64,000 nt of DNA from Pelosinus sp. UFO1 (GTDB lineage Bacteria > Bacillota > Negativicutes > DSM-13327), in contig NZ_CP008852.1 in assembly GCF_000725345.1 (NCBI RefSeq), positions 1,765,693 to 1,829,692 of the forward strand, written 5' to 3'. The notes beneath the pieces are model-generated. The model worked only from the letters and a program-made list of their open reading frames with translations. It had not been told where the DNA came from and made no database searches. Positions within the stretch are counted from its first letter, which is position 1; the number at the start of each line of letters is the position of its first letter. Positions 35,299 through 44,089 of the stretch are shown one piece after another. The position numbers and the translations under genes were made by a program.

Positions 35299-35373
35299 GC
35301 GGAAATAGCTCAGCGGTAGAGCATCGCCTTGCCAAGGCGAGGGTCGGGAGTTCGAATCTCCTTTTCCGCTCCA
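35299..35373 (+). tRNA. tRNA-Gly (GCC)
   Basis: Complete cloverleaf, anticodon GCC, encoded CCA. Identical copy at 55163. Confidence 0.97.
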
Positions 35374-35450
35374 TAGGGGTATAGCTCAATTGGTAGAGTA
35401 GCGGTCTCCAAAACCGTTGGTTGAGGGTTCAAGTCCTTCTGCCCCTGCCA
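35368..35450 (+). repeat. Left 83-bp direct repeat (att-like)
   Basis: Identical to 42957-43039; spans 7 bases upstream of tRNA-Trp through its CCA end. Confidence 0.92.
35375..35450 (+). tRNA. tRNA-Trp (CCA), left copy at island junction
   Basis: Complete cloverleaf with anticodon CCA and encoded 3' CCA. It is the last tRNA of the cluster and the integration target of the island; an identical copy lies at 42964-43039. Confidence 0.97.
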
Positions 35451-35462
35451 TATAACAAGGTG

Positions 35463-35492
35463 AAACGTCATTTTAAAAATGACGTTTTTTTT
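35463..35492 (+). terminator. Terminator of the left tRNA cluster
   Basis: Stem AAACGTCATTTT/AAAATGACGTTT followed by T8. Confidence 0.85.
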
Positions 35493-35502
35493 GTTTTTGG
35501 AT

Positions 35503-35517
35503 GTTTGGACATATACC
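35503..35517 (+). repeat. 15-bp island-end repeat, left copy
   Basis: GTTTGGACATATACC, repeated at 42873-42887 near the other end; possible recombinase or excisionase site, or a promoter -35 region. Confidence 0.5.
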
Positions 35518-35556
35518 CCCTAGTCTGTGTGTTGTAAAAAGACAGAGGGATTTTAA

Positions 35557-36486
35557 ATGTCAAAGATTAGAAGTTTAGTTTCAACAGATTCAAACAAATT
35601 TGATAAGCAAAATACCGTAGAACAATTTTTGGTTTTTTGTGAAACGTATGGACTTGGAAAGGATAGCTTACGAAGTCACAAGTATGCCTTAAATCAGTTT
35701 TTTGAGCAGTACACAGAAAAAAATATTGCAAACATTCCTGAAGTAAAAAAGGCGTTAACATCTGTGTTGAATGGTAAACAGGATGCATATTATAATAAAA
35801 CGCTAAATGCAATACGGAAATTTTCAATTATTGTATCGACGAAGGGTTGATGAAGACTAATCCTGCGATAAAACTAAAATATCGCAGACCAACGATTCAG
35901 GTAGTTGACCACTCAGAAAAAAACATTCGAGATTTCATGAATGCCATCGAAACAGACACCTTTGCAGGGCTGAGAGATTTTGCTTTTGTAAACATGATGT
36001 TAGATTGCGGTATAAGACCAAACGAAGCTTTGCAAATTAAACCTTCTGATGTTAATTTACAAGGCAGACAAATTAGAGTAAGACGTGAATATGCAAAAAC
36101 TAGGAAAGAAAGATATTTACCAATTTCCTTACAAGTGGTTGAAGTATTAAAGAAATTAATTTCTGTTAGACCTTCCGATTGGGAAACAGATGTTCCTGTG
36201 CTTTGTACTTATGATGGTCATAGAATGCCAGCGAGAGGAATGCAAGACAGATTTCGCAAATACTCGGCAAAAATCAATGTAGAAATAACACCTTACCATT
36301 TACGGCATGTTTTTGGATTGTTCTATGTTCGAAAATGGAGGTAGTGCATTTAGTTTACAAGCATTGTTGGGTCATGAAACTTTGGACATGACACGTGTGT
36401 ATGTAAACTTAGCTTCTGAAGATGTGCGAGAAAATCATGAAAAAGCAAGTCCGCTCAAAAATTTATCTGCTTCAAAAAAAGAATAA
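35557..36486 (+). pseudogene. Tyrosine recombinase (integrase) with two frameshifts
   Basis: Across three frames the stretch encodes a full-size protein of about 309 residues. The first part (97 codons) is a SAM-like core-binding domain. The second (to 36344) is the catalytic domain with Arg in CGIRPNEALQ and HLRH. The third (from 36325) carries LLGHETLDMTRVYVNL with the second His and the nucleophile Tyr. One break lies at a T4 run near 35822 (a base missing) and one near 36310-36325 by a T5 run. As written, no intact integrase is made; ribosomal slippage or sequencing error cannot be excluded. Confidence 0.85.
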
Positions 36487-36715
36487 TGAAAATCTAATAG
36501 TTTGTTATTTAATTAAAATATAGTATTTCATACAATCGCCTCATTTTTAAATTTACATCTATAGACGAAGTGATATGATTTATTATTTCGTTGCAGCAGT
36601 ATTATATTAATACAAAAATAGAATTAATTTGCTTATAATTTTGTTTACTATTTACCAAATCCCTACTTATTCAGTAAGAATTGTCTGATAGGAGTAATTA
36701 TTATAGAGTAGGATT
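36487..36715 (+). other. AT-rich gene-free stretch upstream of KAP gene
   Basis: About 230 bases between the integrase end and the KAP control region. No open frame, tRNA or strong hairpin seen. Confidence 0.5.
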
Positions 36716-36774
36716 TAACCATTAAGCGGTTAGGTGCTTCTATTTGTAGGATTTTGGTAATTTATATTGAATAT
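36716..36774 (+). promoter_or_regulatory. KAP gene promoter with inverted-repeat operator (copy 1)
   Basis: A 19-base motif with AACC/GGTT arms (36716-36734) is followed by TTGTAG, a 17-base spacer and TTGAAT (36767-36772). The 34-base block 36741-36774 is nearly repeated at 38404-38437, and the 19-base motif reappears there in inverted orientation with one mismatch. Confidence 0.65.
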
Positions 36775-36808
36775 ACTACATATATTACTTTGGCAAAGGA
36801 TGTTTTAT

Positions 36809-38320
36809 ATGCCTGACAATATATTAAAATTATTCAAATCTAATCGACATGAAATTCTGACAGAAGATAATGATTATCTTAATACAATACCAAAGGGTAA
36901 AATGATAAAGAATTTTATTGAAAAAATTAGTGGTCATACAGCAGCACAAGTTCAGATGATAGCACTATATGGAGATTGGGGAAGTGGCAAGACTTCATTA
37001 ATGCGGTGGATAGAAAAAGATTTATGTAAAGAAAGATTTTATCCTGTTTTCTTTGAAGCATGGAAACATGAAAATGATGAAAATTTGGCTTTGTCAATGG
37101 TGGATGTAATAAGTGTAAATAAAGAGACAGAACTAAAAGAAGTAGCAAATGAAGTTTTTTCAGCATTAAAAGGGATATTAAAAGGTGTTGCAAAAAGCAT
37201 TACATTAGAAGTTCCTGGAGCAAAAATTAATCTTGAAAAAATTGTACAGGAAGCAGAAAATTATTTAAAACCAGATGATATTACATTTTATAAAAAAATT
37301 GATAATTTTCAAATTGCATATAAAAAAATGGAAAATTCAATTTTGGGTAACGGTGAAAAAAAACTATTAATATTTATTGATGACTTAGACCGCTGTGAAC
37401 CTGAAAATGTATTAGCATTATTGTCTGCAATAAAACTATTTTTTACATTTGGTCAGAGAACTATATTTATGTGTGGATTAGATAAAGAAGCTGTTAATAA
37501 AGCCGTTCAACACAAATATGGACAAGTTTTAAAATCAGATGAATATTTAGAAAAAATCTTTGATATTTCCTTTTCTATGCCAAAAGAAATATATCTAAGA
37601 AGATTCTTGGAAACATATCTAATAAGCGAAAATAAGAGAGTTATCGAAGGGGTTAATACTATAGAAGGTAAAGAAAAAGAATATAAAACGTCAAACTTGG
37701 TTTCCGATTTTTTTGAAACTATTAAATTTGGTAATTCAAGACAATTAAGAAAAATTTTAAATAAATACATATTTATAAAATATTTAAAAGAACAAGATAT
37801 AGGTAATAATGATTTAATACCAAATTTAAATCAATCATTTTATGTTATTTTGACTCTATTTATTATAATTTTGTATGAATTTCATCCTGATTACTATAAT
37901 ATTATAAAAAACTATGATAATAAACTTATACATTATTCGAATACCATGAATTCGGATATAGATAACAATATAGAAAATGTCAAGTTTTATTTATTATCTA
38001 CTGCTATACAAACAATTAAAGAAATGAAATGTGAAAAACAAGTGCCAAGAGGAAAAGACCTAAATAAATTATCATCAGATGAACAGAAAAACTTTGAAAT
38101 ATTTAGATATAGTTTTCTTACTATTTTTGCACCGTTATCAAAGAAATATCTTATTCTTAATTATTCTTATCCAAATGCTTATATGAATCAATTTACCGAA
38201 CAAGATAATATTTTATCGAGATTTTGTATGTTTATTGAAAAGAATATAGATTGTGTACTTGAATGTAATGATGAATATATTTTATCAGATATATTTGCTA
38301 TGGCTGAATTATACTTATAA
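36809..38320 (+). CDS. KAP-family P-loop NTPase
   Basis: 503 residues. KAP-type STAND-like ATPase: Walker A GDWGSGKTS at residues 55-63, the KAP hallmark FFEAWKHE about 20 residues later, Walker B LLIFIDDLDRCEPENVL, and the downstream SNRQLRK-like NSRQLRKILNKY motif. The C-terminal part is mostly helical with one hydrophobic stretch (YVILTLFIIILYEF). KAP NTPases are membrane-associated; PifA of plasmid F, a phage-exclusion protein, belongs to the family. The ATG at 36809 has AAAGG 9 bases upstream; the longer frame from 36767 would start inside the promoter. Followed by its own terminator. Defence role is inference. Confidence 0.85.
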   Translation: MPDNILKLFKSNRHEILTEDNDYLNTIPKGKMIKNFIEKISGHTAAQVQMIALYGDWGSGKTSLMRWIEKDLCKERFYPVFFEAWKHENDENLALSMVDVISVNKETELKEVANEVFSALKGILKGVAKSITLEVPGAKINLEKIVQEAENYLKPDDITFYKKIDNFQIAYKKMENSILGNGEKKLLIFIDDLDRCEPENVLALLSAIKLFFTFGQRTIFMCGLDKEAVNKAVQHKYGQVLKSDEYLEKIFDISFSMPKEIYLRRFLETYLISENKRVIEGVNTIEGKEKEYKTSNLVSDFFETIKFGNSRQLRKILNKYIFIKYLKEQDIGNNDLIPNLNQSFYVILTLFIIILYEFHPDYYNIIKNYDNKLIHYSNTMNSDIDNNIENVKFYLLSTAIQTIKEMKCEKQVPRGKDLNKLSSDEQKNFEIFRYSFLTIFAPLSKKYLILNYSYPNAYMNQFTEQDNILSRFCMFIEKNIDCVLECNDEYILSDIFAMAELYL

Positions 38321-38328
38321 GTATCATA

Positions 38329-38358
38329 AACCTTGCATTTAATTGCAGGGTATTTTTT
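38329..38358 (+). terminator. Terminator of the KAP gene
   Basis: Stem ACCTTGCA/TGCAGGGT with a 6-base loop and T7. Confidence 0.82.
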
Positions 38359-38371
38359 TGTCCTAAACGCC

Positions 38372-38437
38372 CCTAACTGCTTAATGGTTAGATTTCACTT
38401 TCATATTTGTAGGATTTTGGTAATTAATGTAGAATAT
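38372..38437 (+). promoter_or_regulatory. Second copy of the KAP promoter/operator block
   Basis: The 19-base operator-like motif (38372-38390, inverted relative to copy 1) is followed by TTGTAG, 17 bases and TAGAAT. It drives the small gene at 38472. Confidence 0.65.
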
Positions 38438-38471
38438 GATATTTATGATTATTGGGGAAGGAGGATGAAAT

Positions 38472-38619
38472 ATGGAAAGCTATAACGCTGCAAGTTTAGC
38501 TATTAAACATCTTGAATATGGAGGAAATAGTAACAAATGTTATTGCAGAAAAAAACAAGAAGATTATAGTTGATGATAATATTAATGTCGGATACGCTAA
38601 CTATAGCCCTGTCAATTAA
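38472..38619 (+). pseudogene. Small gene, possibly frameshifted, co-regulated with KAP
   Basis: AAGGAGG sits 7 bases before ATG 38472. That frame gives only 33 residues (MESYNAASLAIKHLEYGG...), while an overlapping frame from ATG 38518 gives another 33 (MEEIVTNVIAEKNKK...VNVGY-like tail) ending at a terminator. Joining them with one base removed near 38517 makes a smooth protein of about 49 residues. Either a frameshifted small gene or two overlapping ORFs. Function unknown. Confidence 0.5.
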
Positions 38620-38636
38620 GGCAGGGTTATTTTTTA
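38605..38636 (+). terminator. Terminator after small gene
   Basis: Stem GCCCTG/CAGGGT followed by a T6 run. Confidence 0.75.
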
Positions 38637-38706
38637 CTATGTAGAGAATTGAAATAAAATGTAAAAAATGGAAAATATAAACTATCGGGCAAAGGTGGGA
38701 GAAAAT

Positions 38707-39969
38707 ATGTCAGATGAAAAAGAATCAAGTGAAGCAGATAAACCTTTAATTAGAAAAGATTTATTAGATTATGTAGTGAAATTAAATGATAGAGAAATTG
38801 GAAAAACTAAAAATACAGGCTTTACGATTTTAGCATTATTAAGTGCAGTAGGGGCAATTGGTTATAAGATGTTTGAATTTTTTCCGATTTATCAAATTGA
38901 ACAAGAGAGTTTATTAGTAGTATTTACAGCACTTGTTAACTTTGTTTTAGTTGCTTATCGTTTGTGGTTGGATTTATGCAATGAAAATAGTAAAGTTTAT
39001 TTAGCAAATGGAATTAGAAATTATCATTTTTCTATACACTCTATAATGTGGAGTGTAATAATTTTTACAGCTATTTTCTTAAATATAAAATCGAAAGATA
39101 TATTTTTTTATTTCCTTAATCATCAATATACAGTTAACCAATGTTTTATATATGGATATATTTTTGTAATATTATCAAACCCAATTCAATATTTTATATA
39201 TCAAGTAAAAAAGAAAATTAAAAAAGTAAAATATGAAATAACAAATTTACGAATAGATGCGTATAACTTTTGGGTAATTAGTTATATGCAAGTAATTGTA
39301 CCTATAATCTTTTTAGGTATTTTGATAATAAATTTTGATTGTAAAAGTTATTTGTTTTATTTTGACGATTATAATAATTTTTATCTAATTAATTCAAAAG
39401 TTATAAAATTGTCTTGTTTAATATTAGCGATTTGCATTTTAGTTGTTATGAGTATTAGACAATCAATATTTTCACTAACTAATAAATACAGTGAAAGCAT
39501 AGAAAAAAATATAATCGCATCAAATTTATCAATAGATGAAATAAGGGGAAATGTTATAAAACATTTTGGATGTCAGACTCTACACGAATGGATTCAAGAA
39601 CAATATAAATATCAAGAAGAATATAAAACTTGTGTTGATGATGATATAACAAATATCCCAACGTGTCTTAACATGCTGAAATATGAAATTGTAGATAAAA
39701 AAATGAAGCCAAATGAAATATATTTTTATATTATCGAATCAAATATGAAATTAACAAAACATAGAAAAGAGTACGAAAAGAGAACAAAAGAACTGAAATT
39801 GATGTGGGTGCAAGTTGGATTACTTAGTTATGAAGCTAATAAAATTGATGAAATAATTCGTTCATGGGATGCTAATTTTGATTTATTTAAAAACCATGCA
39901 AAATGGTTTGAAGAATCAGTTGAAAATTTATTATTACAACAAACAAACGAACCTCACGACCTGCTATGA
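38707..39969 (+). CDS. Unrecognised polytopic membrane protein
   Basis: 420 residues from an ATG with GGTGGGAG upstream (the longer frame from 38668 lacks a site). A charged N-terminus is followed by about six transmembrane segments between residues 40 and 250, then a 170-residue soluble helical domain rich in Lys/Glu/Tyr. No family recognised. AT-rich like its neighbours; ends inside its own terminator. Position next to the KAP NTPase makes a joint membrane function plausible but unproven. Confidence 0.7.
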   Translation: MSDEKESSEADKPLIRKDLLDYVVKLNDREIGKTKNTGFTILALLSAVGAIGYKMFEFFPIYQIEQESLLVVFTALVNFVLVAYRLWLDLCNENSKVYLANGIRNYHFSIHSIMWSVIIFTAIFLNIKSKDIFFYFLNHQYTVNQCFIYGYIFVILSNPIQYFIYQVKKKIKKVKYEITNLRIDAYNFWVISYMQVIVPIIFLGILIINFDCKSYLFYFDDYNNFYLINSKVIKLSCLILAICILVVMSIRQSIFSLTNKYSESIEKNIIASNLSIDEIRGNVIKHFGCQTLHEWIQEQYKYQEEYKTCVDDDITNIPTCLNMLKYEIVDKKMKPNEIYFYIIESNMKLTKHRKEYEKRTKELKLMWVQVGLLSYEANKIDEIIRSWDANFDLFKNHAKWFEESVENLLLQQTNEPHDLL

Positions 39970-39989
39970 CAGCAGGTCTTTTTCTTTTT
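39958..39989 (+). terminator. Terminator overlapping the stop of the 420-residue gene
   Basis: Perfect stem GACCTGCT/AGCAGGTC, 5-base loop, T-rich tail; the stop codon lies in the loop. Confidence 0.85.
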
Positions 39990-40091
39990 ACTCTAACAAC
40001 AATTTTATCTTTGTTATAATTTCAATATTTCCGATTACATATCACAAAATATGTTAAAATATACCTATCTAAGAACTTAAAGGAGACAAGC

Positions 40092-41111
40092 ATGGATAAA
40101 AAATTAAAAAGATTTTTAAAATATGCATTAGTTACTGCTTGTATATTTCTTGCAATTGGTTGGTATATGCAATACTGTAATAATCCAAATAATTACTTTA
40201 CTATTGCTACACAACAATGGTGGCAGAATGTTTTATTGAATATTGGAGCAGGTTTACTTACAACAATTGCAGTAATATTTTTTTATGACATGGTTCTATT
40301 AAAAAACAGTGAAAAAGATAAAATTTTTAAAAGTCAAATTGCTTTAAATAGTCTATATAAGGTTTTAGATGACCACTTTCGTCATGTTCTATATGCTATG
40401 TATAGGTCATCAGCATTGCAAGAAAAAGAATTTAATTCATTAGATGATTTCTTTTCTGATGAATATTTTAAAGAAATAGAATATCTTGATTTCAATAAAT
40501 CGCCATATTTAAATAAAGATGATGAAAGGCAAGATGAAGTAGAAGAATATAGTTCAATTCCACGTAATTATAAAATTGTTCTTGATTATAATAAGCGACT
40601 TGCTGAATATCTGCTGAATGAAGTGTTAATGGCTTACGGTCAATTCCTTGAAGCTGACATCTCTGAAGTTTTACAAGAAATCAGATTTTCTCCTTTTATA
40701 CTATACTCATATAATTTACCATCATTGACGAAGTGGCATAGTCAATCTTTTTTTAAAATGTTAAGACCTTTAGCAGTTAATGGGAGTATTGCACCAAATG
40801 GATTTGATATAAAAGAAAATGAAGAACTGATTGAGGCATTAAAAAAACACGTTAATTTATTTAAACAAATAGTATCACTTTATAATAAATATGCACCACC
40901 TGAAAAGAAGTTCACTTTTGAAAAAGCATCTAATGGAGTTATAATTGAATGGGGGTGTTGTAGAATAACTAATAAAATTATAACAGGAACAGCTTCTCTA
41001 AGCTTATCTGACGATGAAGCTGATATTAATAAAACAATATTGAAAAAAATTACTAAGATAGAAGAACAACTTAATAAACTAATTACAGAACCAAATGTAA
41101 AATCAGTTTGA
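40092..41111 (+). CDS. Unrecognised membrane protein with large soluble domain
   Basis: 339 residues. Two N-terminal transmembrane segments (about 10-27 and 47-68) are followed by a cytosolic helical region (DDHFRHVLYAMYRSS, YKIVLDYNKRLAEYLLNE) to the end, with a C-terminal coiled coil (ILKKITKIEEQLNKLI). AAAGGAGA precedes the ATG. No family recognised. Followed after 35 bases by another single-anchor protein gene and perhaps cotranscribed with it. Confidence 0.7.
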   Translation: MDKKLKRFLKYALVTACIFLAIGWYMQYCNNPNNYFTIATQQWWQNVLLNIGAGLLTTIAVIFFYDMVLLKNSEKDKIFKSQIALNSLYKVLDDHFRHVLYAMYRSSALQEKEFNSLDDFFSDEYFKEIEYLDFNKSPYLNKDDERQDEVEEYSSIPRNYKIVLDYNKRLAEYLLNEVLMAYGQFLEADISEVLQEIRFSPFILYSYNLPSLTKWHSQSFFKMLRPLAVNGSIAPNGFDIKENEELIEALKKHVNLFKQIVSLYNKYAPPEKKFTFEKASNGVIIEWGCCRITNKIITGTASLSLSDDEADINKTILKKITKIEEQLNKLITEPNVKSV

Positions 41112-41146
41112 TTATTTTAATAAATACAACGAAAAGAAGGTGATTT

Positions 41147-41805
41147 ATGGAAACCTTTGCTCAATGGGTACAAACTTATCAATCAATCATTGTAGTAATT
41201 ATTGGTGTTGTTGGTTGGATAACTAATCATCAACTAAGTTTACGTGCACAAAATAAAAATTTTTTAAATCAACTACATAATACAGCTAGGATAGATATAA
41301 CTTTAAAATTAAGGGAATACCAAGCTTTTTTAATTCTATTATCAAAATTCTATTCATTATTACATGAAACATATAAAAAGAAAGAAATTGATTTTCCTAG
41401 TGATATAGAAAGTTATATTCGCATTCTGCAAAAACGTGATGATAGATGGTCGTTAGTTATGAAAGAGTATCAAATTTTAATTCTGAATTAGAGCAAGCAT
41501 ATAATATATTAAATGAACGTGATTCTAAAATAAAAACTTTTATTAAAATTGGGTTTACTGCAGATGGATTTAATCACAACTTATTTACTAAAATTATTGA
41601 ACAATCTTTAGGGACTTCAATTTTAATCATAGACCAAATATCATTAATTGATGACTTGCTGTTATATTTACAAGAAAAATCCTTTGCAAACATAACAGGA
41701 AAGGCAATTCGTGAAACCAAATCTGATGGTGATAATAGACCCAAATTTATTTATGATGGGAAATTAAAATACGTAGAAGAAAAAGAAGAACACAATGCTC
41801 TTTGA
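41147..41805 (+). pseudogene. Single-anchor membrane protein, frameshifted near 41475
   Basis: The first frame (114 codons, AGAAGGTGATTT upstream) has one transmembrane segment (SIIVVIIGVVGWITN) and a helical stretch. It stops at 41491, where an overlapping frame from 41446 continues with a similar helical, hydrophilic sequence (SELEQAYNILNERDSKIKTF) to 41805. Joining them at the ATTTT run near 41475 gives one protein of about 210 residues. Alternatively two separate ORFs. No family recognised. Confidence 0.55.
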
Positions 41806-41824
41806 GCCATTGTGTTCTTCTTTG
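41784..41824 (+). terminator. Strong hairpin terminator
   Basis: A 14-bp perfect stem (41784-41797 with 41808-41821), extended into the loop by CTC/GAG, flanked by T-rich sequence. Confidence 0.8.
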
Positions 41825-41894
41825 TTAATATACCATAAATTACATGTCATGATATAATATGGTAGAAATCTTAATAATTTGGATGGTGAAATAA

Positions 41895-42647
41895 ATGAGT
41901 TTCCCAAAGAGAATAGATAAAGATTTAAATGATATATCATTAAAAGACAATACATTACAAGGAATAGCAGGTGATAATTTTTTAAAAGATTTATCTACAC
42001 TTGTGACTTCTGCTGTTGTTGACCCTACAGGCATATCTCCTGCTGTTACATTTGCAAGTTTACTATTTAATTTTCGTGGTTCATTACTAAAGGAACGTGA
42101 AATAATGCTTTTTGAAGAATTGAACAGAAATCCTAATATGCTAACAGCAGATGTAATAAAGAAATCCGATTTCCTTCATAAAGCTTTAATTACGTGTCAA
42201 GTTGTAGCTATGACAAACAGGAAGGAAAAAATTATATATCTTGCTAAGTTACTTAAATCATCTACAGTAGAAGAAAATAATATAGGTGTTGATGAATATG
42301 AAGAATATCTTAGTATCATTGCTGACTTATCTTTTCGTGAATTACAGATACTTGCTATTATAGATAAGAATTATATTTTATATCCCGAACCATCTGACCC
42401 AGTTGACGAAGTTCTGACCAAGAATAAAGCGGAGTGGCAAAGTGCATTCTTCCCTAGGGTTAGAAATGAAATTCAAGAATCTCTTGGTGTAAGAAGACAA
42501 GAATTGGATGATATTTTAATAAGAATAAGTCGTTCTGGTTTATATAAGCAATTTGATTACGTAGGAGGACATAATGGAAATGGAACTTTGACACCGTTAT
42601 TCTATCGAATTAAAGAATTAATTCAGCTTAATGATTTCATTCTTTAA
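41895..42647 (+). CDS. Unrecognised soluble protein, last cargo gene
   Basis: 250 residues with GGATGGTGA before the ATG. A Gly/Ala-rich stretch (LVTSAVVDPTGISPAVTFASLLFNFRG, about 38-64) could contact membrane; the rest looks like helical cytosolic protein, with a possible winged-helix-like end (SRSGLYKQFDYVGG). I do not recognise the family. Own promoter likely (TATAAT near 41854). It is separated from the preceding gene by a terminator. Confidence 0.65.
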   Translation: MSFPKRIDKDLNDISLKDNTLQGIAGDNFLKDLSTLVTSAVVDPTGISPAVTFASLLFNFRGSLLKEREIMLFEELNRNPNMLTADVIKKSDFLHKALITCQVVAMTNRKEKIIYLAKLLKSSTVEENNIGVDEYEEYLSIIADLSFRELQILAIIDKNYILYPEPSDPVDEVLTKNKAEWQSAFFPRVRNEIQESLGVRRQELDDILIRISRSGLYKQFDYVGGHNGNGTLTPLFYRIKELIQLNDFIL

Positions 42648-42767
42648 ATTAAAAACTCTTTTAAGAATATTTATTAGCCCAATATTTTATGGGTATTGGG
42701 CTAAGTATGTTGAAAATTAAAACACTTTTAAAATACCTTTCAGATATATGATTTTAATACTTATTTG

Positions 42768-42795
42768 TGTCAGGGGCAGAAGGATTTGAAGCCTC
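42768..42795 (-). repeat. Inverted partial copy of the tRNA-Trp 3' end
   Basis: On the minus strand 24 of 28 bases match the T-arm and acceptor end of tRNA-Trp (core TCCTTCTGCCCCTG). Likely a relic attachment site. Confidence 0.6.
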
Positions 42796-42872
42796 AATCA
42801 ATAGAATTAACTTTACATAAAGTACAACTAAAACTTCAATGTAGGACATGTTTGTTGATGTACTATTTTTTC

Positions 42873-42887
42873 GTTTGGACATATACC
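42873..42887 (+). repeat. 15-bp island-end repeat, right copy
   Basis: Exact match to 35503-35517, with further similarity after a 3-base gap (CTAGT.T.T.TG). Confidence 0.5.
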
Positions 42888-42956
42888 TAGTGTATATGAT
42901 ATAATAATAAGAACAACACATATAGGGTGAAAAGCCAGTAATGACGTGGCTCGAAT

Positions 42957-43039
42957 GCTCCATAGGGGTATAGCTCAATTGGTAGAGTAGCGGTCTCCAA
43001 AACCGTTGGTTGAGGGTTCAAGTCCTTCTGCCCCTGCCA
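42957..43039 (+). repeat. Right 83-bp direct repeat (att-like)
   Basis: Identical to 35368-35450; the match breaks immediately on both sides. Confidence 0.92.
42964..43039 (+). tRNA. tRNA-Trp (CCA), right copy
   Basis: All 76 bases identical to the left copy, so both should be functional if transcribed. Confidence 0.95.
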
Positions 43040-43078: not shown

Positions 43079-43092
43079 TTTTATTTTCCAAG

Positions 43093-43289
43093 TGTATCAT
43101 TACAGAGAATTATGGGAGCATGAGAATTTGGATTTGACAAAGGTCTATGTAAATTTAGCAAATGAGGATATACAAGCAAGTCACGTAATGGCAAGTCCAC
43201 TGGTTAACCTAATGAATAACAAGCGAGTTTCTTTTAGACAACGAAAAAGAACAGGCTTATTATGCCTGCCCTTGTTGTTTATTACCTGA
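43093..43289 (+). pseudogene. C-terminal remnant of a second tyrosine recombinase
   Basis: HENLDLTKVYVNLANEDI and ASPLVNL align with HETLDMTRVYVNLASEDV and ASPLKNL of the integrase at 35557, including the nucleophile Tyr. The preceding SLQRIMG is in another frame, so the relic is also shifted. Everything upstream of it is missing. Confidence 0.8.
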
Positions 43290-43310: not shown

Positions 43311-43853
43311 TTAGTCTTCTTTATTCTGTTTATCTTCGTTTTTAGGTAATTGCTTAGCTGCCGCTGGTTGTAAGTTCAACTGTGACTTGGTTCTTTTAGT
43401 TTGAGTAAATATATCGTCTTGCCACATTTGATAGCCGTAAAGCAGCAACATGTGCATAAAATTAATTAATAATACTTGAAAGCTAGAAATACCGACTAAC
43501 TCGTAAATTCCTCTACTTGGTAAAAATTTGCCCAAAAACAAGAAAGAGAAAACAATGTCAAAAACCACATTGGTAATAATATATAACCAAATTCGACTAT
43601 AAGTAAATTTAAAAATCCACATTGACAACACTGGTAAATTTCCAAAAAAATAAGGAAGCATGTGGTATAAAGGAAACGAAGATTCTCGTACAACCCAAAA
43701 CCCTAACGCAGTTCCAATATCATGAATTATTACTGTTGCGACTATAGCAAGCAAGCCAACTGGCATATAACGTTTAATATCTTCTTTTCTCATAAAAAAC
43801 ATGGTTAGCCAAGGTGCAAAAAACATTGACCACTGTATCAGTTCATTACTCAT
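43311..43853 (-). CDS. CBO0543-type membrane protein
   Basis: 180 residues with five hydrophobic segments and a charged C-terminal tail (TQTKRTKSQ...). The pattern (WSMFFAPWLTMFFMRKEDIKRYMPVG, FYLLP-like PLYHMLPYFFGNLPV) fits the CBO0543 family of endospore-forming Firmicutes, function unknown. AAGGAGAACAGC upstream of the ATG. It lies between two near-identical terminators beyond the island. Confidence 0.65.
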   Translation of the reverse strand: MSNELIQWSMFFAPWLTMFFMRKEDIKRYMPVGLLAIVATVIIHDIGTALGFWVVRESSFPLYHMLPYFFGNLPVLSMWIFKFTYSRIWLYIITNVVFDIVFSFLFLGKFLPSRGIYELVGISSFQVLLINFMHMLLLYGYQMWQDDIFTQTKRTKSQLNLQPAAAKQLPKNEDKQNKED

Positions 43854-44089
43854 AAGCTGTTCTCCTTATCGGAATAAAATTAGTATGTTTCGATAGATTT
43901 TTTTTATACAAATCTAAAAGGTGGTTAACAAGGTATTGCGTCTCAAAACGAAAAGAATCTCTCATGTCAGAGGGATTCTTTTTGTTTTATATGATTAACT
44001 CGTCTAAGCCTATTTTATAGGCAATATAATGAGATGTTTAAGAAATAAAACCAGTACAATTAGAAGGTTTTTACTGTCTCAAATTTTCA
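43854..44089. other. Gene-free stretch containing a duplicated terminator
   Basis: Holds a hairpin at 43953-43981 (AAGAATCTCTC/GAGGGATTCTT plus T5) nearly identical to the one after the right tRNA-Trp. Nothing else recognised. Confidence 0.6.

Follow-up and report, generated by a model that had tools for sequence, protein, structure and literature searches.

A tRNA-Trp island with probably independent candidate anti-phage genes, among them a soluble KAP NTPase behind a sigma-H-type promoter

Does a run of genes led by a KAP P-loop NTPase and rich in membrane proteins form one undescribed defence system, or has it been assembled from genes that work alone? The question is raised by a locus in the window (the whole 64,000-nt stretch of DNA analysed here), for which a preliminary description had proposed a new, possibly anti-phage system, with a collection of independent cargo as the fallback. 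Our reading, to which we give a probability of about 0.55 on the basis of sequence comparisons, is that the locus is a tRNA-Trp island with independent anti-phage genes that probably work alone, chiefly a soluble single-gene KAP NTPase that would be switched on by sigma-H.

The host genome is a single contig of 5.1 Mb, and its gene content, together with general knowledge, suggests a spore-forming Negativicute. At the left end of the locus, the tRNA-Trp gene closes an Asp-Gly-Trp tRNA cluster (ARAGORN and Rfam) and is followed by integrase pieces, the KAP gene, a small ORF, genes for a multi-pass and a two-TM membrane protein, a single-anchor gene with a frameshift, the gene of a 250-aa protein and a second tRNA-Trp gene (Table 1). 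Each tRNA-Trp gene lies inside an 83-bp perfect repeat, and the two are spaced by 7,589 bp. The site is empty in the nearest relative (G006), whose flanks are 94-95% identical. Because the single tRNA-Trp of this relative runs straight into the sequence that follows the second copy in the window, we delimit the cargo island proper, by this comparison, to 35451-43039 (7.6 kb). The right-end site and the single site of G006 match over 131 bp with 97.7% identity, after which G006 continues with sequence matching window positions 43954-43999 and then 44019 onwards. Direct repeats that include the tRNA, an integrase and an empty site in a relative thus identify a strain-specific tRNA genomic island. 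All genes lie where they had been placed, with the reservations that 41147-41805 is frameshifted, that the small ORF encodes only 33 aa and that the integrase has two frameshifts. An inverted copy of the tRNA-Trp 3' half (42767-42801, 89% match) is found within the island, some 200 bp ahead of the second tRNA-Trp, and may be left over from the att site of another insertion. For the family of the membrane protein in the second insertion, beyond the right end, several further partial DNA matches occur in this genome.

Table 1. Features of the tRNA-Trp island and of the adjoining insertion (window coordinates)
Feature	Position	Strand	Evidence or remark
Direct repeat copy 1, left end; holds tRNA-Trp 35375-35450	35368-35450	+	83 nt, 100% identical to 42957-43039
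Tyrosine integrase, two frameshifts	35557-36486	+	Phage_integrase 1.3e-21 on middle piece; three frame segments needed
Sigma-H-type promoter of KAP gene	36746-36772	+	GTAGGATTT-N11-ATTGAAT; exact match to RNAGGAWWW-N11/12-RNNGAAT
KAP P-loop NTPase, 503 aa	36809-38320	+	Pfam KAP_NTPase, E 2e-32; PADLOC; hydropathy; model
KAP gene terminator	38330-38351	+	Terminator prediction
Second sigma-H-type promoter, ahead of small gene	38409-38435	+	GTAGGATTT-N11-GTAGAAT; exact pattern match
Small ORF, 33 aa, good ribosome-binding site	38472-38573	+	Sequence
Small-gene terminator	38603-38630	+	Terminator prediction
Orphan membrane protein, multi-pass, with a soluble tail	38707-39969	+	Four strong hydrophobic segments
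Two-TM protein	40092-41111	+	Sequence; loci of relatives
Single-anchor protein, frameshifted	41147-41805	+	Frame analysis
250-aa protein, no strong hydrophobic segments	41895-42647	+	Sequence; loci of relatives
Direct repeat copy 2, right end; second tRNA-Trp; runs into ancestral downstream sequence	42957-43039	+	Comparison with G006
Second, degraded insertion	43088 to ~43945	.	Missing at this place in G006
Integrase C-terminus remnant, inside second insertion	43092-43289		Resembles end of island integrase
Membrane protein, inside second insertion	43311-43853	-	Missing at this place in G006

The identification of the leading gene as a KAP P-loop NTPase was borne out. Its product matches PF07693 with 113 bits against a cut-off of 20 and carries a Walker A motif and a DDLDRCE Walker B signature; residues G58, G60, K61 and D191-E197 are invariant among 24 homologues. 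Hydropathy analysis located its sole hydrophobic segment at residues 336-354, beyond the NTPase core; the stretch from Walker A to Walker B lacks a transmembrane insertion such as many PF07693 members have in the NTPase domain. Soluble KAP NTPases exist, and the missing insertion is thus no bar to membership of the family. A structure model of medium confidence (pLDDT 73) was compared with solved structures using Foldseek, and the top 15 were all RdrA of RADAR. Since the TM-scores are low (about 0.4), this result points to kinship of the NTPase fold and not to RADAR membership; RdrA, 12-14% identical, is moreover a larger protein that works with RdrB, for which no match was found among the neighbours. 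The KAP profile found nothing when run against PDB sequences.

Among known or candidate defences, the best PADLOC match is PDC-S20, a single-gene KAP NTPase that likewise stands alone, with an E-value of 1.1e-36. Residues 35-442 of the 517-aa frame align with positions 18-421 of 464, so that most of the model is covered. PDC-S20 itself has candidate status only; it is not named in the papers searched, where no description of sigma-H control of it was found either. PifA, the T7 exclusion protein of the F plasmid, comes next (2.5e-22 over residues 52-336) and is also encoded by a single gene with a KAP NTPase core. The match is not full length, covering only 30-315 of 720 model positions, and the island KAP is chromosomal in Bacillota whereas PifA is on a plasmid. 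PifA is held to sense T7 infection and stop the cell. QatA of the Qat system (QatABCD) has this core in common (6e-21), but the NCBIfam score of the island KAP, 84.6 bits, falls well short of the 600 required for QatA, and no neighbour matched another Qat model. Finally, anti-phage activity has been reported for Tmn, a single KAP-family NTPase gene (PMC11846954); Tmn has two unusual transmembrane domains whereas the NTPase domain of the island KAP has none, which sets the latter apart.

The other proteins were analysed individually. The membrane protein at 38707-39969 (38668 in our scans), presented previously as a six-helix protein with a soluble tail, is indeed multi-pass and tailed; four strong hydrophobic segments were counted and six are still possible. 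It has no convincing Pfam, PADLOC, NCBIfam or PHROG match and one weak match among 150 relatives, and a close-relative scan of genome contigs with its single sequence gave none. The two-helix protein is present as a two-TM protein (40092), with homologues in three of the 150 genomes; a 62% identical relative in G034 lies near a 1,240-aa nSTAND (STAND NTPase) protein and a ToxN/AbiQ gene. The 250-aa protein (41895) is present and intact, with homologues in two of these genomes and a structure model too poor for use (pLDDT 52). One of its relatives is found beside an Mrr-like nuclease and PDC-S31, and another beside PDC-S54, both of them PADLOC candidates. In two prophage-like stretches, the place right before the terminase genes is taken by a relative (L028:8510-9283 and L191:5911-6594), which makes the family, lacking a PHROG entry, a candidate for phage accessory (exclusion) genes. 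A relative on a Moraxella plasmid, among molybdenum-cofactor genes, is a counter-example to this defence company. Neither the 40092 nor the 41895 family has an entry in the libraries searched. The single-anchor protein, presented as one gene, is split by its frameshift and is a pseudogene unless the frameshift is a sequencing error. The ORF of the small gene is possibly decayed. A structured RNA was considered for this gene and rejected, as the fold is no better than that of shuffles (z-score -0.57) and no Rfam family matched.

The preliminary description had made co-occurrence of homologues the test of a multi-gene system. Among the 150 relatives, homologues of KAP, 38668, 40092 and 41895 lie in different places and none together, in a check that included a tblastn search of the fetched loci with the whole cargo. 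One genome, G058, has distant relatives of both KAP and 41895, yet on separate contigs (C74 and C2). A KAP profile scan of 84,980 species genomes returned 80 KAP loci, and the nearest 26 loci from other taxa contain none of the other island cargo. As the homologues share no neighbourhood in any locus found, the proposal of one undescribed system fails this test, and independent cargo becomes the better reading. A single system, in which KAP would be the sensor or energiser and the membrane proteins the effectors, draws on adjacent genes on one strand of one island and on the promoter element common to KAP and the small gene. With homologues that are never found together, separate terminators (present, as described, after KAP, the small gene and the membrane protein) and a frameshifted gene as one member, it is highly improbable. 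Slightly less so, yet still improbable, is a decaying island without present function: the integrase and 41147-41805 are frameshifted and the second insertion is degraded, but the frames of KAP, 40092 and 41895 are open and full length compared with homologues, and that of 38707 is open. To judge from the comparisons, the conserved unit is the promoter with the KAP gene. Relatives of KAP, 40092 and 41895 each have defence or prophage company of their own, and the region is best read as independent defence cargo. The suggested anti-phage role is thus supported gene by gene, through the neighbours of relatives, and not for one system; the record is corrected from a new system to several candidate single-gene defences.

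KAP leads a solitary life elsewhere. Among the 150 relatives, homologues occur in 10 genomes beyond the window's own; only that of G126 belongs to the window's KAP clade, which is missing from the rest of the genus. In G126, the 3' end of a SIS-domain gene reading as glmS immediately precedes the KAP gene (L012:1396-3818). The glmS 3' end is the classic Tn7 attachment region; no Tn7 genes were found on the short KAP contig of G126. In Clostridium intestinale, the KAP relative adjoins an integrase and is 117 bp from the LmuB gene of a complete LmuABC Lamassu set, and in a Clostridia MAG a single gene run holds an AbiO/Nhi-like helicase, one other gene and then the KAP relative. In Bacteroidota, by contrast with such defence islands, solitary KAP genes stand among core genes and are convergent with polA in 14 loci, in several genera, so that a non-defence role is possible for this clade. 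These polA-convergent loci (L041, L045, L049-L052, L054-L059, L063 and L065) form a recurrent chromosomal site for solitary KAP. Viral contigs gave no match in a close-relative scan with single sequences of KAP, 38668, 40092 and 41895, nor with KAP and 40092 alignments; phage records contained KAPs, all distant, and none of the other island cargo.

The two boxes of a sigma-H promoter are separated by a spacer of 11-12 nt. The element GTAGGATTT-N11-(ATT/GTA)GAAT, common to KAP and the small gene, matches exactly, in both copies, the pattern derived from the consensus boxes RNAGGAWWW and RNNGAAT (PMC8510167). The two promoter regions are near-copies (56 nt, 77%); the shared promoter had been recognized previously, its sigma-H type had not. 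The genome encodes SigH (375 bits, cut-off 295) and, with the pattern upstream, the KAP gene has the sequence features of a sigma-H regulon member. Across the whole genome, 100 sites fit the strict pattern, compared with 26 for a reversed control; the strict sites show a strong strand bias per chromosome half, as expected of promoters co-oriented with replication. This roughly four-fold enrichment is enough to draft the sigma-H regulon of the genome; among the genes behind the first 30 strict matches, one, located 63 bp downstream, reads by eye as sepF.

Conservation of the promoter was then assessed among KAP relatives. The core AGGA-N17/18-GAAT is found upstream of KAP in the window, in Paenibacillus (KAP 35% identical) and in C. 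zeae (33%), and all but one base of it in G126 (55%); it was not found in the C. intestinale upstream region. Shuffles yield the core by chance in 0.7-3.7% of upstream regions, and we estimate the chance of three core matches in five spore-former-group KAPs, all those of the clade found in these groups, at about 1e-4, for a small sample. As the window and G126 are related, independent support for the motif amounts to about three. Homology between these two begins about 3 bp above the -35 box, the promoter being 81% and the 60 bp above it 22% identical, and the conserved promoter and leader reach a local score of 63 against a null maximum of 40. Among the 80 KAP loci worldwide, drawn from all phyla, the core is confined to C. 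zeae, and more distant Bacillota KAPs lack the motif save for two doubtful matches; the claim is therefore limited to the window's KAP clade.

That the match could be chance or a vestige, and KAP a conventional single-gene defence, constitutive or induced by infection, on a defence island, deserves consideration, since spore-former homologues are few, one is without the motif and GC-poor DNA yields a core match in about 1-4% of upstream regions. Two perfect matches in the island, core or near-core elements at -45 to -117 in three relatives, and a promoter conserved beneath an unrelated upstream stretch nevertheless make this rather unlikely. Alternatively, the promoter could be genuine and KAP a developmental or housekeeping factor, sigma-H control and the polA-side position reflecting chromosome or envelope remodelling and not immunity. 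The promoter type, and the way KAP stands alone among core genes in Bacteroidota (beside polA in Flavobacteria), are consistent with such a role; the patchy presence of the clade, carriage beside integrases or recombinases, and Lamassu and AbiO-like neighbours argue against it, and we consider it unlikely.

Under the preferred reading of a stand-alone KAP defence, sigma-H RNA polymerase would switch the gene on as cells pass into stationary phase and sporulation. The P-loop domain would act as the infection sensor, assembling or changing shape with ATP like PifA and other KAP/STAND-type NTPases, and the helical C-terminal domain would halt the infected cell, a timing that would protect a population on the verge of dormancy. 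Each of the remaining island proteins would work on its own, those in the membrane by envelope exclusion or as effectors of abortive infection. More tentatively, a mobile anti-phage gene may carry its own sigma-H promoter from host to host, turning immunity on at commitment to dormancy, with this wiring retained or acquired anew in Negativicutes, Paenibacillus and Clostridium. Dormancy has been treated as a refuge from phage (PMC9429907), and a literature search for sigma-H together with phage defence found nothing. The promoter would thus add a testable link to sporulation to a KAP defence gene. If KAP protects against phage and also depends on sigma-H, it would escape defence screens run in growing cells, and immunity and dormancy, two answers to phage, would be joined in one promoter.

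A near-palindrome of the TAACC-ATTAAGC-GGTTA type is located just above both sigma-H-type promoters (36713-36742 and 38364-38393) and is missing in G126. Considered as an integron attC site, it was dropped, being too short and without an array; it looks like an operator.
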